Origin: Candidatus Freyrarchaeum guaymasense
GTDB lineage: Archaea > Asgardarchaeota > Jordarchaeia > Jordarchaeales > Freyrarchaeaceae
Direction: 5' to 3'
DNA length: 32,007 bases
NCBI GenBank assembly: GCA_030587405.1
Contig: JAUQZD010000022.1
Span: 1 to 32,007 of the forward strand
Each line of letters starts with the position of its first letter. Position 1 is the first letter of the stretch. The notes beneath the pieces are model-generated. The model worked only from the letters and a program-made list of their open reading frames with translations. It made no database searches and was not told where the DNA came from. Positions 8,293 to 18,402 of this stretch are shown here, piece after piece. A program made the position numbers and the translations under genes.

Positions 8293-8769
8293 CTACCGCT
8301 TCCTCCTTCATCCCCGAGTGGGCGCCCATCCCTTTAAGGACGGGTTCGACCATGCATCGTTCCACGTGGGCGGGGCTAGACGGGCGTAAGGAAAGCTTAA
8401 CGGGGGCTCACCGCTACCAGCAACGGACGGGTTGAAGTGTGCATCTAAGCTTAACGAGATGCTTTCAAGCGGCGGTGCGGTGGTGGAGTCCATGCCAGAC
8501 ACCATGACGCCGTCAGGTAGCCCACGTGTAAACTGATCGTAGTTGTAAAGGAAAGAGTTAGCTTTAAGTTTTACTTTAATCGGGCTTCCCGGGTTTCTAG
8601 CGTTGTGTTTCTCGGGTTCCTCGGCGGGGCGCTACGTTCCCCGTCCGTTCCACAACATGGTTTGGTGGACGGGGTGGAGGGTGAGGGTGGAGGTTGAGCG
8701 TGGAGGCTGAGCGTGGAGGCGAAAGCGTTTTAGGGATGAAGCTTCCTTCACGTGTTTGGGGGGTGGATC
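8293..8769. other. Intergenic region with a decayed open frame
   Basis: No intact gene is seen in these 477 bases between a minus-strand and a plus-strand gene. On the plus strand one frame stays open from the left edge to TAA at 8387, and then again to TGA at 8534. It reads plausible but unassignable protein (for example GFDHASFHVGG and MTPSGSPRVN). This may be an eroded mobile-element tail, but no diagnostic motif is present. An A/T-rich patch (about 8550-8582) and the 13-base tandem repeat at 8682 follow. Confidence 0.4.
8682..8720. repeat. 13-base tandem repeat, three copies
   Basis: Three head-to-tail copies of TGAGCGTGGAGGC lie just upstream of the Nudix gene; the first copy differs at two positions. 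No reading frame or promoter element is obvious within it. Confidence 0.8.
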
Positions 8770-9198
8770 GTGGCTAGGGAGTATCCTGAGCGTCCCCTGG
8801 TTGGAGTGGGAGGGGTCGTCTTCGATGGTGGCAGGGTTCTGCTCGTTAAGAGGGGGAGCCAGCCGTCCTATGGTAAGTGGTCTATTCCTGGTGGCTTGGT
8901 TGAGCTTGGCGAGACCGTGGCTGACGCTTGCGTCAGGGAGGTTTACGAGGAGACGGGGTTGATCGTGAAGGTTAAGAGGCTCATAGACGTGGTTGACTAC
9001 ATAGATTACGATGAGGAGGGGGAGGTGAGGTTCCACTATGTTATAGTTGACTTTCTGGTGGAGCCCGTTGGAGGAGTACTTAGGGCTGGCACCGACGCGC
9101 TAGACGCCAGGTTCGTGAGGCTGGATGACCTGGGAAGGTACGAGTTGACGGGGACCGCACGCAGGTTGTTCATCAAGCTCGGGTGGATGAAGGGTTAA
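8770..9198 (+). CDS. Nudix hydrolase (ADP-ribose pyrophosphatase-like)
   Basis: This 142-residue single-domain enzyme hydrolyses a nucleoside diphosphate linked to another moiety, with Mg2+. The Nudix box is complete (residues 42-64: G-x5-E-x7-R-E-V-Y-E-E-T-G-L), preceded by WSIPGGLVELGE. The sequence around it, VGVGGVVFDGGRVLLVKRG, is typical of the ADP-ribose/NADH pyrophosphatase group, but the substrate is not determined. I chose GTG 8770 because GGGGGTGG lies just before it; GTG 8752 would add six residues. The 3' end overlaps the convergent PDCD5 gene by four bases. Confidence 0.85.
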   Translation: MAREYPERPLVGVGGVVFDGGRVLLVKRGSQPSYGKWSIPGGLVELGETVADACVREVYEETGLIVKVKRLIDVVDYIDYDEEGEVRFHYVIVDFLVEPVGGVLRAGTDALDARFVRLDDLGRYELTGTARRLFIKLGWMKG

Positions 9199-9581
9199 TC
9201 TTCCTTCCTGAGTGCTTCGGTTAGGTCTAATGGTTTCTCCTCGCCCCGCCTTTTAATCATGATCCTCGGCTCCACCCCCTCGATCTTCCTCTCCATTCTC
9301 ATTATGTCGATCTCCGTCAGCCTCCTGTTAACCAGCTTGTTGGCGAAAACGTATATTACCGCGCTTTCTATCTTCTCGGCTACTTTCGGCTTCCTCTCCC
9401 TGAGGTTTTCGAGGCGGCGCTTCGCCTCGGGGGTCAGCACCATGGTGAAGAAGCGTTCCTTCTCCTTTTCAGCCTCGCTCTGCTTCGCTCTACCTTCCTC
9501 TTCAGCCCTTTTGGCAGCAGCCATCTTCATCAGCTGGATGAGCTTGCGCCTCTTGATCATTTCTAGCTCTTCATCGGACAT
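9195..9581 (-). CDS. PDCD5-family DNA-binding protein
   Basis: This is a 128-residue, very charged helical protein. It begins MSDEELEMIKRRKL, the characteristic opening of archaeal PDCD5 proteins, followed by a basic helix (to about 45) and the conserved three-helix core containing the typical VLTPEAKRRLENLR segment (about 47-61). Archaeal members bind double-stranded DNA; the biological role is unclear. ATG 9581 matches the family start. A GTG at 9602 would add seven residues and lies near the expected transcript start, because a TATA-like GTTTAAGTA is at about 9620-9628. It shares an 85-base promoter region with the divergent PhoU-like gene. Confidence 0.85.
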   Translation of the reverse strand: MSDEELEMIKRRKLIQLMKMAAAKRAEEEGRAKQSEAEKEKERFFTMVLTPEAKRRLENLRERKPKVAEKIESAVIYVFANKLVNRRLTEIDIMRMERKIEGVEPRIMIKRRGEEKPLDLTEALRKED

Positions 9582-11327: not shown

Positions 11328-11336
11328 AAATATATT
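11328..11336 (+). promoter_or_regulatory. TATA box of the riboflavin operon
   Basis: AAATATATT in an A/T-rich patch. A transcript start about 25 bases on gives a short leader to the ATG at 11372, too short for an FMN riboswitch; none was seen. Confidence 0.55.
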
Positions 11337-11371
11337 TGAGATCTTCTTATTGTGAAGAACGGTGTCCACGC

Positions 11372-12082
11372 ATGCGGCAGGCAGAGGTTAGAAGGGTTGC
11401 TAGGAGCCTCCTGCAGGGAGACTTTGTGCTGGTATACGACGAGGACGGGAGAGAGGAGGAAGTCGACATGGTGATGCTGGCTGAGAAGGCTACCCCAAGA
11501 CATGTTTACAGGCTTAGAAGGGATGCCGGAGGACTCATCTGCGTAGCCCTCCACCCTAAAATATGGGAGAGGTGGGGGCTCCCCTTCCTCCACGACGTCT
11601 TCAGCTTTTCAAGCATGAAGTATGGTGTGCTGTCAAGCCTGGCGCCAAACGACATACCCTACGATTCCAGGTCTGCCTTCTCGATCACCGTCAACCATAG
11701 GAAGACGTACACTGGAATCACGGATGCTGATAGGGCTTTAACCATAAGCGAGGTAGGGAGAATGGGGAGGGAGACCATTGAGGAGCCCGGCTTAGACTGG
11801 CGGAGGAGGGTTGGGGAGGCGTTCAGGTCTCCTGGACACGTCCACCTCCTCCTTGCTGCAAGGGAGCTGCTCCATGAGAGGCACGGGCACACCGAGCTCA
11901 CGGTGTCGCTTGCAGAGGTGATGGGGGTTCCACCGGTGATGGTGCTCTGCGAGATGCTCGACGGCGAAACGGGGGGAGCCCTCTCGGTAAGGGACGCTAA
12001 AAGGTATGCTGAGAGGTACGGGTTCAACTTCCTGCGGGGCGAGGACATAGTTGAGCTGTGGGAGAGGAGCCATGAAGGTTAA
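11372..12082 (+). CDS. ribB: 3,4-dihydroxy-2-butanone 4-phosphate synthase
   Basis: The enzyme converts ribulose 5-phosphate to formate and the four-carbon unit used by lumazine synthase. The protein has 236 residues. The acidic Mg2+ and substrate loop is visible as DGREEEVDMV (residues 25-34); further on come DAGGLICVAL, the TGITDADRALTI signature and GHTELTVSLAEVMG near the C-terminus, all in the expected order. I chose ATG 11372 because an upstream TTG (11336) lies within the TATA box. It is the first gene of a tightly packed operon and overlaps ribC by 11 bases. Confidence 0.93.
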   Translation: MRQAEVRRVARSLLQGDFVLVYDEDGREEEVDMVMLAEKATPRHVYRLRRDAGGLICVALHPKIWERWGLPFLHDVFSFSSMKYGVLSSLAPNDIPYDSRSAFSITVNHRKTYTGITDADRALTISEVGRMGRETIEEPGLDWRRRVGEAFRSPGHVHLLLAARELLHERHGHTELTVSLAEVMGVPPVMVLCEMLDGETGGALSVRDAKRYAERYGFNFLRGEDIVELWERSHEG

Positions 12083-12542
12083 GATAGGCATAGCGGACAC
12101 GACGTTTGCAAGGTACGACATGGCTAGGGTTGCAGTGGAGGAGATCGAGAGCATGACGAGCAAGGTGGAGATAGTGAGGTACACGGTTCCAGGGGTGAAG
12201 GACCTGCCGGTTGCCGCCAAGAAGCTCATAGAGGAGGAGGGGTGCGAGGTGGTTATAGCGTTCGGCATGCCTGGCCCTGAACCCATAGACAAGCTGTGCG
12301 CCCATGAGGCTTCGATGGGGATAATCCAAGCCCAGCTGATGACCAACAAGCACATAATAGAGTGCTTCGTGCACGAGGACGAGGGGGGGAGCGTTGAGGA
12401 GCTCATCTCGATATGTGAGGACAGGGCGAGGAAGCACGCTAGGAACGCTGTGAGGCTCATATTTGACAGGGAGTGGCTTACCAGGCATGCCGGGCAGGGT
12501 CTCAGGCAGGGGCACCCGGACGCAGGACCCCTAAAGCCTTAA
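12072..12542 (+). CDS. ribC: Archaeal-type riboflavin synthase
   Basis: The enzyme catalyses the dismutation of two lumazines into riboflavin and the ribityl-aminopyrimidine. The archaeal enzyme is unrelated to bacterial RibE and instead resembles lumazine synthase. The 156-residue protein begins MKVKIGIADTTFARYDMA and contains VRYTVPGVKDLPVAAKKLI, FGMPGPEPID and the helix AQLMTNKHIIECFVHEDE, all typical of this family. ATG 12072 is preceded by GAGAGG and overlaps the end of ribB, which suggests translational coupling. An in-frame upstream GTG/ATG extension was rejected. Confidence 0.93.
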   Translation: MKVKIGIADTTFARYDMARVAVEEIESMTSKVEIVRYTVPGVKDLPVAAKKLIEEEGCEVVIAFGMPGPEPIDKLCAHEASMGIIQAQLMTNKHIIECFVHEDEGGSVEELISICEDRARKHARNAVRLIFDREWLTRHAGQGLRQGHPDAGPLKP

Positions 12543-12572: not shown

Positions 12573-13013
12573 GTGGTGAAGGTGGCTGGTGAGGGCGTGA
12601 ACCTTGGCATAGTGGTTTCCGAGTTCAACTACGATATAACGTACCTCATGCTGCAGAGGGCGGTGGACCACGCCGAGTTTCTGGGCGCGAAGGTTATTAA
12701 GGTGGTGAAGGTTCCCGGGGCGTTCGACATGCCTCTCGCCGTTAAGAAGCTTCTCGAGAGAGGCGACGTCGACGCCGTCGTCACCATAGGGGCGATCATA
12801 AAGGGCGACACCGACCACGACCAGGTGGTTGCACAGCACGCGGCGCGTAAAATGGTTGACCTAGCGCTGGAGTATGGTAAGCCCGTGACCTTGGGGGTTT
12901 CAGGTCCAGGTATGACTAGGATGGAGGCCATGGAGAGGATTGAGGAGTTCGCCAGGAGAGCGGTTGAGGCGGCTGTTAAGATGGTTAAGAGGATGAGGGA
13001 GGTTTCAACTTAG
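12573..13013 (+). CDS. ribH: 6,7-dimethyl-8-ribityllumazine synthase
   Basis: The enzyme condenses the aminopyrimidine with dihydroxybutanone phosphate to give lumazine. The protein has 146 residues. The substrate loop SEFNYDIT (16-23), the phosphate-binding [12 protein letters not shown] (49-60) and the catalytic histidine in GDTDHDQVV (His82, matching His88 of bacterial enzymes) are all visible. [16 protein letters not shown] near the C-terminus is the archaeal version of the last active-site segment. Several in-frame GTG codons make the exact start uncertain within a few residues. It is the third gene of the operon, 15 bases before arfA. Confidence 0.93.
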
Positions 13014-13027
13014 GGGAGCTGAACGCC

Positions 13028-13807
13028 TTGATAAAGATGACGCTTGTTCAGCTTGACAATTACGGTCCCTGGACGGAGTTCCTTGGGGATGACAGGGAGG
13101 CTGACCTGCAGGTTTTACAGTCCGAGCTCTACGCCGACCTGCAGAGGATGTTCTCCTCGAAGGGTGGACTCCTCTTCTTCTCCAGGTTCGACAACATGCT
13201 CGCTGTATCGAACGGGGTGACGGTGGAGGATCACAGGGCCATCCTGAAAAGCATCGCTAGGAGGTACCCTGTGACCGTCAGCATGGGGATCGGGGTTGGG
13301 GAGACACCCTACGAGGCGCAGCGTATGGCTACGAGGATGCTTCAGAGGAGCGGGAGCGCCCAGTCGCCTGAAAGGAGAAGCGTACTGGCCCATAACCTTG
13401 ACGGGCCTGTCAGGGGGGGATACGTCCAGATAGCCCACATAGACGTTAACAGCTTCACGGAGCAGGTGACCGACAGGGAGGACGCCTACAAGGCAATGTA
13501 CCTGGTCTCAAACCTGTCCACCGTCCTGATGAAGCTGTCGATGAGTAAGGGCATATTAACGTTCTTCAACGGCGGGGATAACTTCATATCTGTTTGCAAT
13601 GGTTTGAGCGAGGACGACTTTAGGGAGATCCTTTACAGGCTTGAGGTGAGCACCGGGCTGAAGCTTAAGGCAGGCGTAGGGTTCGGGAGGAACGCTGTTG
13701 AAGCCCTAACAGAAGCCAACAAGGCTCTTTCGATGATAAGGAGGGGTAAAAGGGGGGAGCCCGTGGTTTTCCTGGGAGGGCCGCCACGTGAAGACTATCT
13801 ACTGTGA
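13028..13807 (+). CDS. arfA: GTP cyclohydrolase III
   Basis: This is the first committed step of archaeal riboflavin synthesis: GTP to the formamidopyrimidine (FAPy) nucleotide. The protein has 259 residues in two related palm-like halves (about 1-125 and 130-255) of the cyclase/GGDEF-like fold. Each half carries a strand-turn with acidic or polar metal ligands, VQLDNYGPW near the start and AHIDVNSFTEQ in the second half. SMGIGVGETPYEAQ and KAGVGFGRNAVEALTEA repeat the same helix start, and FFNGGDN is also present. It starts at TTG (ATG three codons later is possible) after GGGGAG. Its end overlaps the next gene by 20 bases. Confidence 0.9.
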   Translation: MIKMTLVQLDNYGPWTEFLGDDREADLQVLQSELYADLQRMFSSKGGLLFFSRFDNMLAVSNGVTVEDHRAILKSIARRYPVTVSMGIGVGETPYEAQRMATRMLQRSGSAQSPERRSVLAHNLDGPVRGGYVQIAHIDVNSFTEQVTDREDAYKAMYLVSNLSTVLMKLSMSKGILTFFNGGDNFISVCNGLSEDDFREILYRLEVSTGLKLKAGVGFGRNAVEALTEANKALSMIRRGKRGEPVVFLGGPPREDYLL

Positions 13808-14924
13808 GTACGCCCTCCTAGGCAGAGAGTTAAGGTTTGAGGAGAGGGTTTACGTCACGATCTCGAGCAGTGGATTTATAAAGAGGGTTTCACCCTCCCC
13901 GCCTAGGAGGGTGGATGAGGAGTATGATTCATGCCTTCTCACCCCGGGGTTCATCAACGCTCACACGCACGTAGGAGACTCCTTCTTTAAGGAGGTCGGG
14001 TTTAACGTTCCCGTGGAGGAGCTGGTTGCGCCTCCAGACGGGCTTAAACACAGGCTTTTAAGGAATGCAGGGGAGGACGACGTTAAGGAGGGGATTAGGT
14101 GCGCGGCGGAGGAGATGCTGTCCTCCGGAACCACGGCTTTCGCGGACTTCAGGGAGGGAGGCGTCAGGGGGGCGCTGATCCTTAGGAGGGCGCTTGAGGG
14201 CACGCCTATACGCTACATAATACTGGGAAGGAATGATGGGTTGGAGGAGCTGCTCCGCGTGTGCGATGGCGTAGGGCTCCCCTCAACCAACCTTTACAGC
14301 GACGAGGAGTTGAGGAGGATCTCTGAGGCATGCAGGTTGAACGGGCTTCTAGTGGCGGCTCACGCCTCCGAAACAGTGAGGGAGAGGGAGCTGGCCGTCA
14401 AGATGTATGGTGTGTCGGATGCTGTGAGGGCTGTTAAGGTGCTTAACGCCGACCTCCTAGTCCACTTAACGCACGTTGACGAGGAGGAGCTACCCCTCTT
14501 ATCGGGGAGGGGGGTTGCATGCTGCCCGAGGGCTAACGCGTACCTCGGCGTCGGGCTCCCCCCCGTCGAGAGGATGGTTAGGGCGGGAGTCAGGGTTTGC
14601 CTTGGAACGGACAACGTGATGGTGAACAGCCCCGACCTCCTAAGAGAAATGGACTTTCTGGGGAAGATGGTTAGGGCTAGGTCCGGCCCAGCATGCCTCG
14701 AGGCCAGGGAGATAGTTAAGATGGTGACGGTTAACCCGGCTGAGGTTTTGGGGCTGAACTCGGGGTGGATTGAGAGGGGGAGGTGCGCTGACCTTGCGGT
14801 CATAGACCTTGACGCCGCCAACGTTAAGCCGGTTCACCACCCTTACCAGGCGCTTGTCCACAGGGTTAAGTCCGAGAACGTGCTGTGCGTCTACGTTGGG
14901 GGTGTTAAAGCCTATGAAAGGTAA
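13788..14924 (+). CDS. Amidohydrolase of the cytosine/SAH deaminase type inside the riboflavin operon
   Basis: This 378-residue TIM-barrel metalloenzyme has a complete set of metal and catalytic residues for the ATZ/TRZ-like deaminase branch: HxH at His59/His61 (NAHTHVGD), His192 with Glu195 in HASET (the H-x-x-E proton shuttle of deaminases), His229 in HLTH, and Asp275 in GTDN. The N- and C-terminal beta-sandwich strands are present (LTPGFINAH; ADLAVIDLD). It overlaps arfA by 20 bases and arfC by 11, so it is almost certainly translated with the pathway. The creatininase-type deformylase ArfB and a known aminopyrimidine deaminase are both absent from the cluster. It may supply the deaminase, or less likely the deformylase step. 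The function is inference. Confidence 0.85.
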   Translation: MKTIYCEYALLGRELRFEERVYVTISSSGFIKRVSPSPPRRVDEEYDSCLLTPGFINAHTHVGDSFFKEVGFNVPVEELVAPPDGLKHRLLRNAGEDDVKEGIRCAAEEMLSSGTTAFADFREGGVRGALILRRALEGTPIRYIILGRNDGLEELLRVCDGVGLPSTNLYSDEELRRISEACRLNGLLVAAHASETVRERELAVKMYGVSDAVRAVKVLNADLLVHLTHVDEEELPLLSGRGVACCPRANAYLGVGLPPVERMVRAGVRVCLGTDNVMVNSPDLLREMDFLGKMVRARSGPACLEAREIVKMVTVNPAEVLGLNSGWIERGRCADLAVIDLDAANVKPVHHPYQALVHRVKSENVLCVYVGGVKAYER

Positions 14925-15576
14925 ACCCTACGTTATACTTAACGCCGCCATGAGCCTTGATGGCAAAATAGCGACTGTAGGGGGGGACTCGGAGTTCTCG
15001 GACGAGGAGGACTGGAGGAGAGTGCACAGGCTCAGGGCCGAGGTCGACGCGATAATGGTTGGGGTTAACACCGTGCTAGCCGACGACCCTAAGCTGACTT
15101 CCAAGGTAGGGAGGAGCCCTTTAAGAGTTGTCGTCGACAGCATGGCCAAGACCCCTCCTACGGCGAGGGTTCTCACCTACAGGAGGGATGTGCCAACCGT
15201 GATAGCCGTGACGGGTAGGGCTCCAGCTGAAAGGGTTGAGAAGCTGAGGGAGGCAGGGGCGAGGATCCTGGTGTGCGGCGAGGGGAGGAGGGTGGACTTG
15301 GAGGTTCTCATGGAGAAGCTCTTCGAGATGGGGGTTAGAAGGCTCCTCCTTGAAGGGGGAGGAAGCCTTAACTGGGGCATGTTCGAGAAGGGGTTAGTGG
15401 ACGAGGTGAGGGTTGCCGTGGCCCCGGTGATAGTTGGCGGAAGCAGGGCGGTGACGCTCGTTGAGGGGGAGGGGTTCGGCAGGGTGAGCCAGGCGGTGAA
15501 GCTTAAAATTCTAAACGCTGAGAGGGTGGGGGGATGCTTGCTAATAACGTGCAAAGTGGAGAAAAAAGGGATTTAA
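14914..15576 (+). CDS. arfC: 2,5-diamino-6-ribosylaminopyrimidinone 5'-phosphate reductase
   Basis: This NADPH-dependent enzyme reduces the ribosyl to the ribityl side chain in archaeal and fungal riboflavin synthesis. The 220-residue protein is a single RibD C-terminal (DHFR-like) domain. It opens with PYVILNAAMSLDGKIAT, followed by DAIMVGVNTVLADDPKLT, the glycine-rich EGGGSLNWGMF segment, and APVIVGGSRAVTLVEG. No deaminase domain is fused, as in other archaea. ATG 14914 follows GGGGGTG and overlaps the amidohydrolase stop; a longer in-frame extension through that gene was rejected. It is the last gene of the operon. Confidence 0.92.
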   Translation: MKGKPYVILNAAMSLDGKIATVGGDSEFSDEEDWRRVHRLRAEVDAIMVGVNTVLADDPKLTSKVGRSPLRVVVDSMAKTPPTARVLTYRRDVPTVIAVTGRAPAERVEKLREAGARILVCGEGRRVDLEVLMEKLFEMGVRRLLLEGGGSLNWGMFEKGLVDEVRVAVAPVIVGGSRAVTLVEGEGFGRVSQAVKLKILNAERVGGCLLITCKVEKKGI

Positions 15577-17136: not shown

Positions 17137-18402
17137 GTGGATACCGTGAGGGTTGGCTTACCCCAGATGCCGTGGTTTGGTGACGTGGTTTTAGAGCTGG
17201 AGTTCCCCGAGGAATGGGATGTGCATGTCTGCGGTATGGCGGGTGACGGGAAAAAGCCTCTAAGCACGGAGCAGATCCTGTCAGCGTTGAGGAACCCTAT
17301 TGGAGTGAAGGCTTTGGACAGGATGGCGGAGGGAAAGGAGGAGGCAGTGATAGTATTCGACGACATGACGAGGCCTACGAGGGTGTACGAGATAGCCCCC
17401 CTAGTTCTTGAGGAGATGAGGAAGGGAGGGATAAGAGAGGATCATGTGAGGTTCATCTGTGCGAACGGGGCGCACGGCACGTTTGACAGGGAGGACTTCG
17501 CTAAGAAGCTTGGGGAGGAAGTAGTTGAAGGGTACCCTGTCTTCAATCATAACCCGTACAGCAACGTAGACTACTTGGGGCACACCAAGCACGGGACTCC
17601 GGTGGAGGTAAACGCCGAGGTTATGAGCTGCGACTTGAAGGTTGCCATCGGATGCATAGTCCCCCACCCGCAGTTTGGCTTCGGAGGGGGGGCGAAGATT
17701 GTTCTGCCGGGTGTATCAAGCGTGAGAACCATATCGTTTAACCACGGGGACCTAGGCGGATGGTCTGCAGCCTCGGACTACAGGGAGATGCACCCCAGCT
17801 GCCAGCTGGCTTACGGGAGGGTTAACGAGGAGAACATTATGAGGCAGGACGCTGAGGAGGCAGCCAGAATGGTTGGATTGGACATGGTGGTGAACGTCCT
17901 GGTGGACTTCAGGAGGAACTCGACGGACGTCTTCGCGGGCGACGTTGTGGGGGCGCAGAGGGAAGGGGTGAGGGAGGCAATGACGCATTACAGGGCGCAG
18001 CTCGTCCAGAACCCGGACATAGTAGTCTCTAACGCTTACTCTAAAGCCAGCGAGGCGACCATAGCGGCGTGGCCAGCGGTCATAATGAGGGAGGGAGGTA
18101 CGCTCGTGATAGTGTGCAACACTCCAACGGGGCAAGTTTCACACTACGTCCATGGTAGGTGGGGTGTTAAAAGGGTCGGTGGAAACCTCTGGCTTCCACC
18201 TACAAGAATACTGGACAGGGCGGGGAAGATAATAATCTTGTCCAAGTACCCTGAGAAGCAGCACTGGCTGGAGATGGCTCCACCAGAGAAAACAGTTAAG
18301 CTGAAAACATGGGAGGAAGTTCTCGAGGAGTTAAAGAACACGCATAAGGGGAGGCCTAGGGTAGCCGTTTTCCCCGACGCAACGATCCAGAAGCCATTCT
18401 AG
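17137..18402 (+). CDS. LarA-family (nickel-pincer) racemase/epimerase
   Basis: This 421-residue protein is a member of the DUF2088/LarA family, whose founding member racemises lactate using a covalently bound nickel pincer nucleotide. Key features: DDMTRP (75-80), NGAHGTFD with His113, PHPQFGFGGG with His177, the lysine that would carry the cofactor in GGGAKIVLPG (Lys187), and NHGD with His203. The order and spacing match LarA. The substrate may be another 2-hydroxyacid. The cofactor genes larB, larC and larE are not in the window. It starts at GTG, possibly leaderless. It is monocistronic; about 215 bases of unassigned sequence follow. Confidence 0.8.
   Translation: MDTVRVGLPQMPWFGDVVLELEFPEEWDVHVCGMAGDGKKPLSTEQILSALRNPIGVKALDRMAEGKEEAVIVFDDMTRPTRVYEIAPLVLEEMRKGGIREDHVRFICANGAHGTFDREDFAKKLGEEVVEGYPVFNHNPYSNVDYLGHTKHGTPVEVNAEVMSCDLKVAIGCIVPHPQFGFGGGAKIVLPGVSSVRTISFNHGDLGGWSAASDYREMHPSCQLAYGRVNEENIMRQDAEEAARMVGLDMVVNVLVDFRRNSTDVFAGDVVGAQREGVREAMTHYRAQLVQNPDIVVSNAYSKASEATIAAWPAVIMREGGTLVIVCNTPTGQVSHYVHGRWGVKRVGGNLWLPPTRILDRAGKIIILSKYPEKQHWLEMAPPEKTVKLKTWEEVLEELKNTHKGRPRVAVFPDATIQKPF

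Follow-up and report, generated by a model that had tools for sequence, protein, structure and literature searches.

A putative amidohydrolase-type pyrimidine deaminase paired with ArfC in archaeal riboflavin and F420 gene clusters

In bacterial RibD, a deaminase of the CDA fold is joined to the same reductase domain that archaea possess as ArfC. The order of the two reactions differs in archaea, where reduction precedes deamination according to the accessible sections of two studies (PMC13028884, PMC3403918). The later steps are treated as common to bacteria and archaea in what is available of PMC13028884 and PMC9478397, and the latter names RibD. The accessible text of PMC9478397 also places the creatininase-family formamidases ArfB/BrbF in this pathway, and states that RibA yields the deformylated product itself. 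One intermediate, 5-amino-6-ribitylaminouracil, is common to riboflavin and FO/F420 synthesis (accessible part of PMC8498797). In 2021 the riboflavin pathway of H. volcanii was described as having three gaps, with candidates for two of them (PMC8305020, accessible part). Table 6 of that paper credits HVO_2483 and MJ0699 (34% identical) to Rodionova et al. 2017 as proposed candidates for a riboflavin step, and lists them between arfC and the EC 3.1.3.104 step, which is where a deaminase belongs. The hypothesis of a deaminase at this point of the archaeal pathway thus has a published precursor, as cited in the accessible text of PMC8305020.

The DNA analysed here is a stretch of 32,007 nucleotides, referred to below as the window. 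It contains a row of genes running in one direction, ribB-ribC-ribH-arfA-AHS-arfC, with the following features:

11336..12082, + strand: ribB (TIGR00506, 211 bits)
12051..12542, + strand: ribC, archaeal riboflavin synthase, start codon provisional (TIGR01506, 226 bits)
12573..13013, + strand: ribH, 6,7-dimethyl-8-ribityllumazine synthase (TIGR00114, 156 bits)
13028..13807, + strand: arfA, GTP cyclohydrolase III (GCH_III, PF05165, 291 bits)
13788..13807, + strand: overlap of arfA and AHS, 20 bases (ORF coordinates)
13788..14924, + strand: AHS, ATZ/TRZ-type amidohydrolase, proposed 2,5-diamino-6-(ribitylamino)pyrimidinone 5'-phosphate deaminase (PF01979, NF005552, AlphaFold2 model)
14914..14924, + strand: overlap of AHS and arfC, 11 bases (ORF coordinates, arfC from ATG 14914)
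14914..15576, + strand: arfC, reductase and partner gene of AHS (TIGR01508 / RibD_C, 237.5 bits, cut-off 186.45)

The AHS reading frame encodes 378 amino acids on the + strand, from a GTG at 13788 to a stop ending at 14924, and by eye a GGGAGGG (13774-13780) lies seven bases 5' of this GTG. The ORF coordinates agree with the overlaps of 20 and 11 bases given in a preliminary description of this DNA; the shorter one assumes that arfC starts at ATG 14914, since its longest ORF would begin upstream at TTG 14809. An identical gene order is present at a locus (L001) of Candidatus Jordarchaeum LHC_1308 (G001), the AHS of which is 74% identical. As the whole order recurs in a relative at this distance, it is not due to chance. 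Jordarchaeales are also the source of the closest homologs of AHS among those carrying a source name. Downstream of arfC the window encodes a protein with a lactate racemase N-terminal domain (17137-18402, + strand, PF09861), and L001 has what appears by eye to be a similar ORF in a like position.

AHS is a member of the amidohydrolase superfamily (PF01979, 156.1 bits against a cut-off of 25). PF01979 and PF07969 were the only Pfam domains in the protein; the Pfam search found in it neither PF00383, the CDA-fold deaminase domain of RibD, nor PF02633, the creatininase family of ArfB, and ArfB/BrbF belong to a different superfamily. The best NCBIfam model was NF005552/PRK07213 "chlorohydrolase", with 287.7 bits against 138.6 for the runner-up. 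The window protein falls 6 bits below the curated cut-off of 294, and its relative in G001, 74% identical to it, reaches 300.9. Of the members tested from other groups, four from Nitrososphaeria, Bathyarchaeia and Korarchaeota lie above the cut-off at 313-363 bits, and two encoded on haloarchaeal plasmids gave 246 and 270. The catalytic residues are common to this archaeal orphan family and the window AHS. The name "chlorohydrolase" is without support in the present data, and the literature searched, mostly papers outside subscription, held no mention of PRK07213. The AlphaFold2 model of AHS has a mean pLDDT of 94.3 and a pTM of 0.94. Nine sequences with solved structures match a sequence profile of AHS with E values of 1e-30 or lower. 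TM0936 and an MTA/SAH deaminase are among these solved relatives, and the second match was an atrazine chlorohydrolase, so family membership is no proof of deamination. In a tree of 96 proteins, built by a quick method and containing some long branches, the 81 AHS rows formed one branch against 15 other amidohydrolases (SH-aLRT 100). We take MJ0699 to be an amidohydrolase, and MJ0699 and HVO_2483 probably belong to the AHS family. Haloarchaeal AHS homologs exist, and NF005552 has matches at E 0.001 or better in M. jannaschii and H. volcanii, as it does in E. coli and others. Among the top-ranked papers of the same literature, again mostly outside subscription, there was no experimental report on the function of PRK07213, HVO_2483 or MJ0699.

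The residues by which AHS can be compared with its relatives are the following:

13962..13979, + strand: H59-x-H61 metal motif and family-specific D64 (each in 48 of 48 relatives)
14046..14048, + strand: K87, family-specific (K in 81 of 81 AHS rows; I, V or W in 15 of 15 others)
14151..14156, + strand: R122-E123, family-specific pair (R in 80 of 81 and E in 81 of 81 AHS rows)
14361..14372, + strand: H192-x-x-E195, metal ligand and proposed proton shuttle (48 of 48 relatives and 96 of 96 rows)
14463..14465, + strand: H226, catalytic histidine (H in 96 of 96 rows)
14610..14615, + strand: D275, catalytic, and N276, family-specific (D275 in 96 of 96 rows)

The active site proposed in the preliminary description stands for H59, H61, H192, E195 and D275, all invariant in 48 aligned relatives, but has to be corrected at H229. 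A histidine occupies position 226 in 47 of these relatives and position 229 in 19, and H226 aligns with the sole histidine of 4dyk in that stretch, indicating that H226 is the active-site histidine. AHS thus has the sequence family and the HxH...HxxE...H...D set in common with the TM0936-type MTA/SAH deaminase and other ATZ/TRZ enzymes. It differs from them in its separate branch and in D64, K87, R122-E123 and N276. Position 64 is D in 80 of the 81 AHS rows (one gap) and M, Q, G or E in the 15 other amidohydrolases; position 122 is Y or M in all 15; and position 276 is N in 81 of 81 AHS rows and G in 15 of 15 others. The AHS family also often, though not always, has R148 and R359. The single residues presumably have the roles known from ATZ/TRZ enzymes, and we infer that a phosphorylated substrate would be well accommodated by basic residues next to a centre of the deaminase type.

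The distribution of AHS was examined in 195 genomes, of unstated completeness, from the phylum of G001, presumably Asgard archaea. NF005552 is unusable without a score limit, because it also matches other amidohydrolases and finds 178 of the 195 genomes at E 0.001. AHS genomes were therefore picked by eye from matches down to 107 bits, 9 of the 87 listed genomes scoring below 151 bits. Two of them (G011 and G062) were rejected, their proteins being of the N-ethylammeline/DadD type by profile scores and tree. ArfC genomes were likewise picked by eye from TIGR00326 matches that span the reductase part and score at least 61.7 bits, leaving out a partial match in G170 (39.9 bits) and matches weaker than E ~1e-7. 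ArfC, the stand-alone RibD_C protein, was present in 89 of the 195 genomes. AHS and ArfC occurred together in 84 genomes, ArfC alone in 5, AHS alone in 1 and neither in 105 (Fisher p 8e-48, uncorrected for ancestry; 84/5/3/103 and 9e-45 if the two rejected genomes are kept). All 78 genomes with an AHS of at least 151 bits have ArfC. The five ArfC genomes without intact AHS (G034, G070, G124, G130, G145) occupy three places on the ArfC tree, so that the absences count as three changes, and the 84 co-occurrences are uncorrected for shared descent. ArfA (PF05165) was found in only 13 of the 195 genomes. AHS is present in 12 of these, and only the same number of the 84 genomes with AHS and ArfC have arfA. 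AHS therefore follows ArfC, which is accompanied by AHS in 84 of 89 genomes, and a tie to arfA is rejected. The thirteenth ArfA genome (G064) has a row ribB-ribC-ribH-arfA-creatininase (L152), and arfC and AHS were not found in the genome, both partners being missing together. In 36 of the 195 genomes RibA is present and no RibD_C reductase is listed.

The same partnership is visible in the gene order. We compared 86 AHS loci, one in the window and 85 in genomes of the phylum of G001; outside this phylum, only plasmid records allowed the neighbouring genes to be read. In 72 of the 86 loci the next same-strand gene after AHS is arfC; the longest ORFs overlap in 60 of these pairs, by lengths that depend on the choice of start codon, and lie within 200 bases of each other in 12. 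The preliminary description had regarded orthologues lying mostly outside pathway operons as evidence against its reading, and in the genomes read the opposite is found. Genes for F420 synthesis (cofG/cofH) lie within 6 kb of AHS in 57 of the 86 loci and ribB, ribC or ribH in 14, indicating that AHS serves the trunk common to riboflavin and F420. Label-free clustering of neighbours in 62 loci gave CofG/CofH in 45, MptA in 27, ribB/ribC/ribH in 10, FolE in 6 and a creatininase-family protein in 5. The AHS-arfC pair is thus plugged into riboflavin or into FO/F420 synthesis. A protein of 636 amino acids from Promethearchaeota (P0122) is a natural AHS-ArfC fusion, with the AHS part at 12-376 and the ArfC part at 415-630. 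Its key AHS residues are kept, and its full ArfC part scores above the cut-off of its model. It is the only full fusion among the best 120 of 2,192 matches to a joined AHS+ArfC query. Another protein, P0129, in which half of ArfC is joined to a piece of AHS, comes from a contig of 2.6 kb and probably reflects a chimeric assembly. The gene, its sequence family, its residues, the co-occurrence, the linkage and this one fusion are in hand, and from these sequence data we consider it very likely that AHS is the archaeal pyrimidine deaminase of the trunk pathway shared by riboflavin and F420.

Not all loci fit this pattern, and AHS might instead be an accessory enzyme carried in cofactor operons, removing damaged or overflow intermediates or salvaging pterins or purines. 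MptA or FolE genes adjoin AHS in many loci, and four haloarchaeal plasmid members lie apart from rib gene clusters and other pathway genes, as such a role would allow. The near one-to-one occurrence with ArfC, the adjacency and the fusion point to an obligate step, and make an accessory role very improbable. On pNRC200 of H. salinarum the AHS-family gene (L117:5878-6894, + strand) lies near the gas-vesicle cluster, with no rib genes within 6 kb, and similar copies are found on Natrinema, Halorussus and Halorientalis plasmids. In G018 (L154), AHS lacks an adjoining arfC and stands beside an ORF of 190 amino acids (8662-9231, - strand), which resembles by eye a flavin-reductase-type protein. MptA is near AHS in 27, and FolE in 5, of 42 AHS+ArfC genomes without a match to GTP cyclohydrolase II/III (L043-L092, L132, L133 and others). 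The proximity of MptA and FolE could reflect either shared regulation or cyclohydrolases that help to supply the first intermediate.

The preliminary description had left two readings side by side, a deaminase and a replacement deformylase with the function of ArfB, taking formate off the ArfA product. Several observations seem to speak for the latter. AHS is the gene immediately after arfA in the window as well as in eight genomes, nine loci in all in which the two genes adjoin, and there is no creatininase gene among the window ORFs. In G001 and G005, close relatives of the window organism, creatininase genes lie only away from the operon, and the six creatininase-family proteins tested all fall short of the ArfB model, which has a cut-off of 180, with 29-49 bits or no match at all. 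The absence of ArfB noted in the preliminary description holds for the ORFs of the 32-kb window, by BLAST and by a profile of five ArfB-like creatininases. It does not extend further, because G001, the nearest relative, has two creatininase-family genes elsewhere in its genome, and absence is therefore to be understood as absence from the window only. Creatininase-family genes occur in 136 of the 195 genomes, which is too common for their presence alone to signal ArfB. Against the deformylase, a creatininase-family gene lies inside the arfA cluster in 10 of the 13 arfA genomes, directly 3' of arfA in G012, G064, G071, G077 and G092, and downstream of arfC, within the row that includes AHS, in G015, G023, G031, G052 and G157. 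These genes can be called ArfB by place only, since those tested score far below the ArfB model. AHS and ArfC are moreover kept in 72 genomes without arfA. RibA, whose reaction includes deformylation, is found in 30 of these 72, which argues against AHS being retained for that reaction; the 30 RibA genomes among the 84 with AHS and ArfC include 14 without any creatininase-family gene. The fusion partner of AHS, finally, is ArfC and not ArfA. Of the two earlier readings, the deaminase is the one that accords with the distribution, and we give hardly any credence to the deformylase.

The distribution of RibD and of the CDA-fold deaminase domain gives evidence both for and against AHS as the deaminase. 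The ascription of the step to RibD in the accessible text of PMC9478397 counts against AHS, yet a profile search found no full RibD above the cut-off in the 195 genomes. There was no PF00383 match in 12 of the 13 arfA genomes and in 21 of the 84 genomes with AHS and ArfC, which speaks for the deaminase, although genome gaps could explain some of these absences. Some PF00383 protein was present in the other 63 of the 84, which counts against the deaminase. Among 14 controls, PF00383 was not matched in M. jannaschii and S. acidocaldarius, and was matched in H. volcanii and M. acetivorans. One of the five ArfC genomes without intact AHS, G145, has only a decayed C-terminal AHS half beside arfC, together with a separate ORF carrying a RibD-type deaminase domain. 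The remnant (L099:6655-7231, - strand) occupies two different frames immediately 5' of an arfC whose reading frame is open, and no trace of the metal-binding N-terminal half was seen in an 11.8-kb stretch of this genome. No other of these five genomes has such a replacement domain, which also counts against the deaminase; G070, G124 and G130 have one PF00383 protein each and G034 has none. The two kinds of deaminase are not strictly exclusive, since G185 has a RibD-type N-terminal domain together with AHS and ArfC. Taking these data together, it seems likely that an amidohydrolase-fold deaminase with ArfC, at least once fused to it, is the general supplier of 5-amino-6-ribitylaminouracil for both riboflavin and F420 in archaea, an independent invention occasionally replaced by a RibD-type domain.

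For AHS as a deaminase, we infer which reaction it carries out, on which substrate and by means of which residues, and in what order the steps run in the window organism. ArfC would reduce 2,5-diamino-6-ribosylamino-4(3H)-pyrimidinone 5'-phosphate to the ribityl compound. AHS would then exchange the 2-amino group for oxygen, using a metal-activated water held by H59, H61, H192 and D275, while E195 and H226 would move protons. The products would be 5-amino-6-ribitylaminouracil 5'-phosphate and ammonia, and the former, once dephosphorylated, could pass to RibB, RibH and RibC for riboflavin or to CofG and CofH for FO and then F420. AHS-ArfC would thus correspond in archaea to bacterial RibD, an amidohydrolase barrel taking the place of the CDA-fold deaminase domain; P0122 has two domains, as RibD does, and the proposed deaminase is a metal-dependent amidohydrolase. 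The linkage to arfC and the service to both riboflavin and F420 would be explained equally well if AHS were the missing phosphatase acting on the deaminated product, the EC 3.1.3.104 step, listed as a gap in Table 6 of PMC8305020 (accessible part). The residue set and the nearest families belong, by contrast, to amidohydrolases that attack C-N or C-Cl bonds, a phosphatase would leave the genomes without PF00383 with no known candidate for the deaminase, and the pairing of AHS with ArfC mirrors the deaminase-reductase pairing of bacterial RibD. A phosphatase is accordingly a most unlikely identity for AHS.

Compared with the earlier proposal, five points are new here: AHS is tied to arfC, it occurs in F420 clusters, it is separate from ArfB-like genes, PF00383 is missing from most arfA genomes, and a fusion protein exists. 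The assignment of AHS as a deaminase is directly testable, given that AHS and ArfC are found fused and that cultivable haloarchaea carry copies of AHS. Should AHS be the deaminase, a gap in riboflavin synthesis would close for many archaea, and likewise for F420, which methanogens and other archaea use as a core cofactor, and the "chlorohydrolase" family would gain a function. The partnership of deaminase and reductase would then have been assembled twice, from unrelated deaminases.
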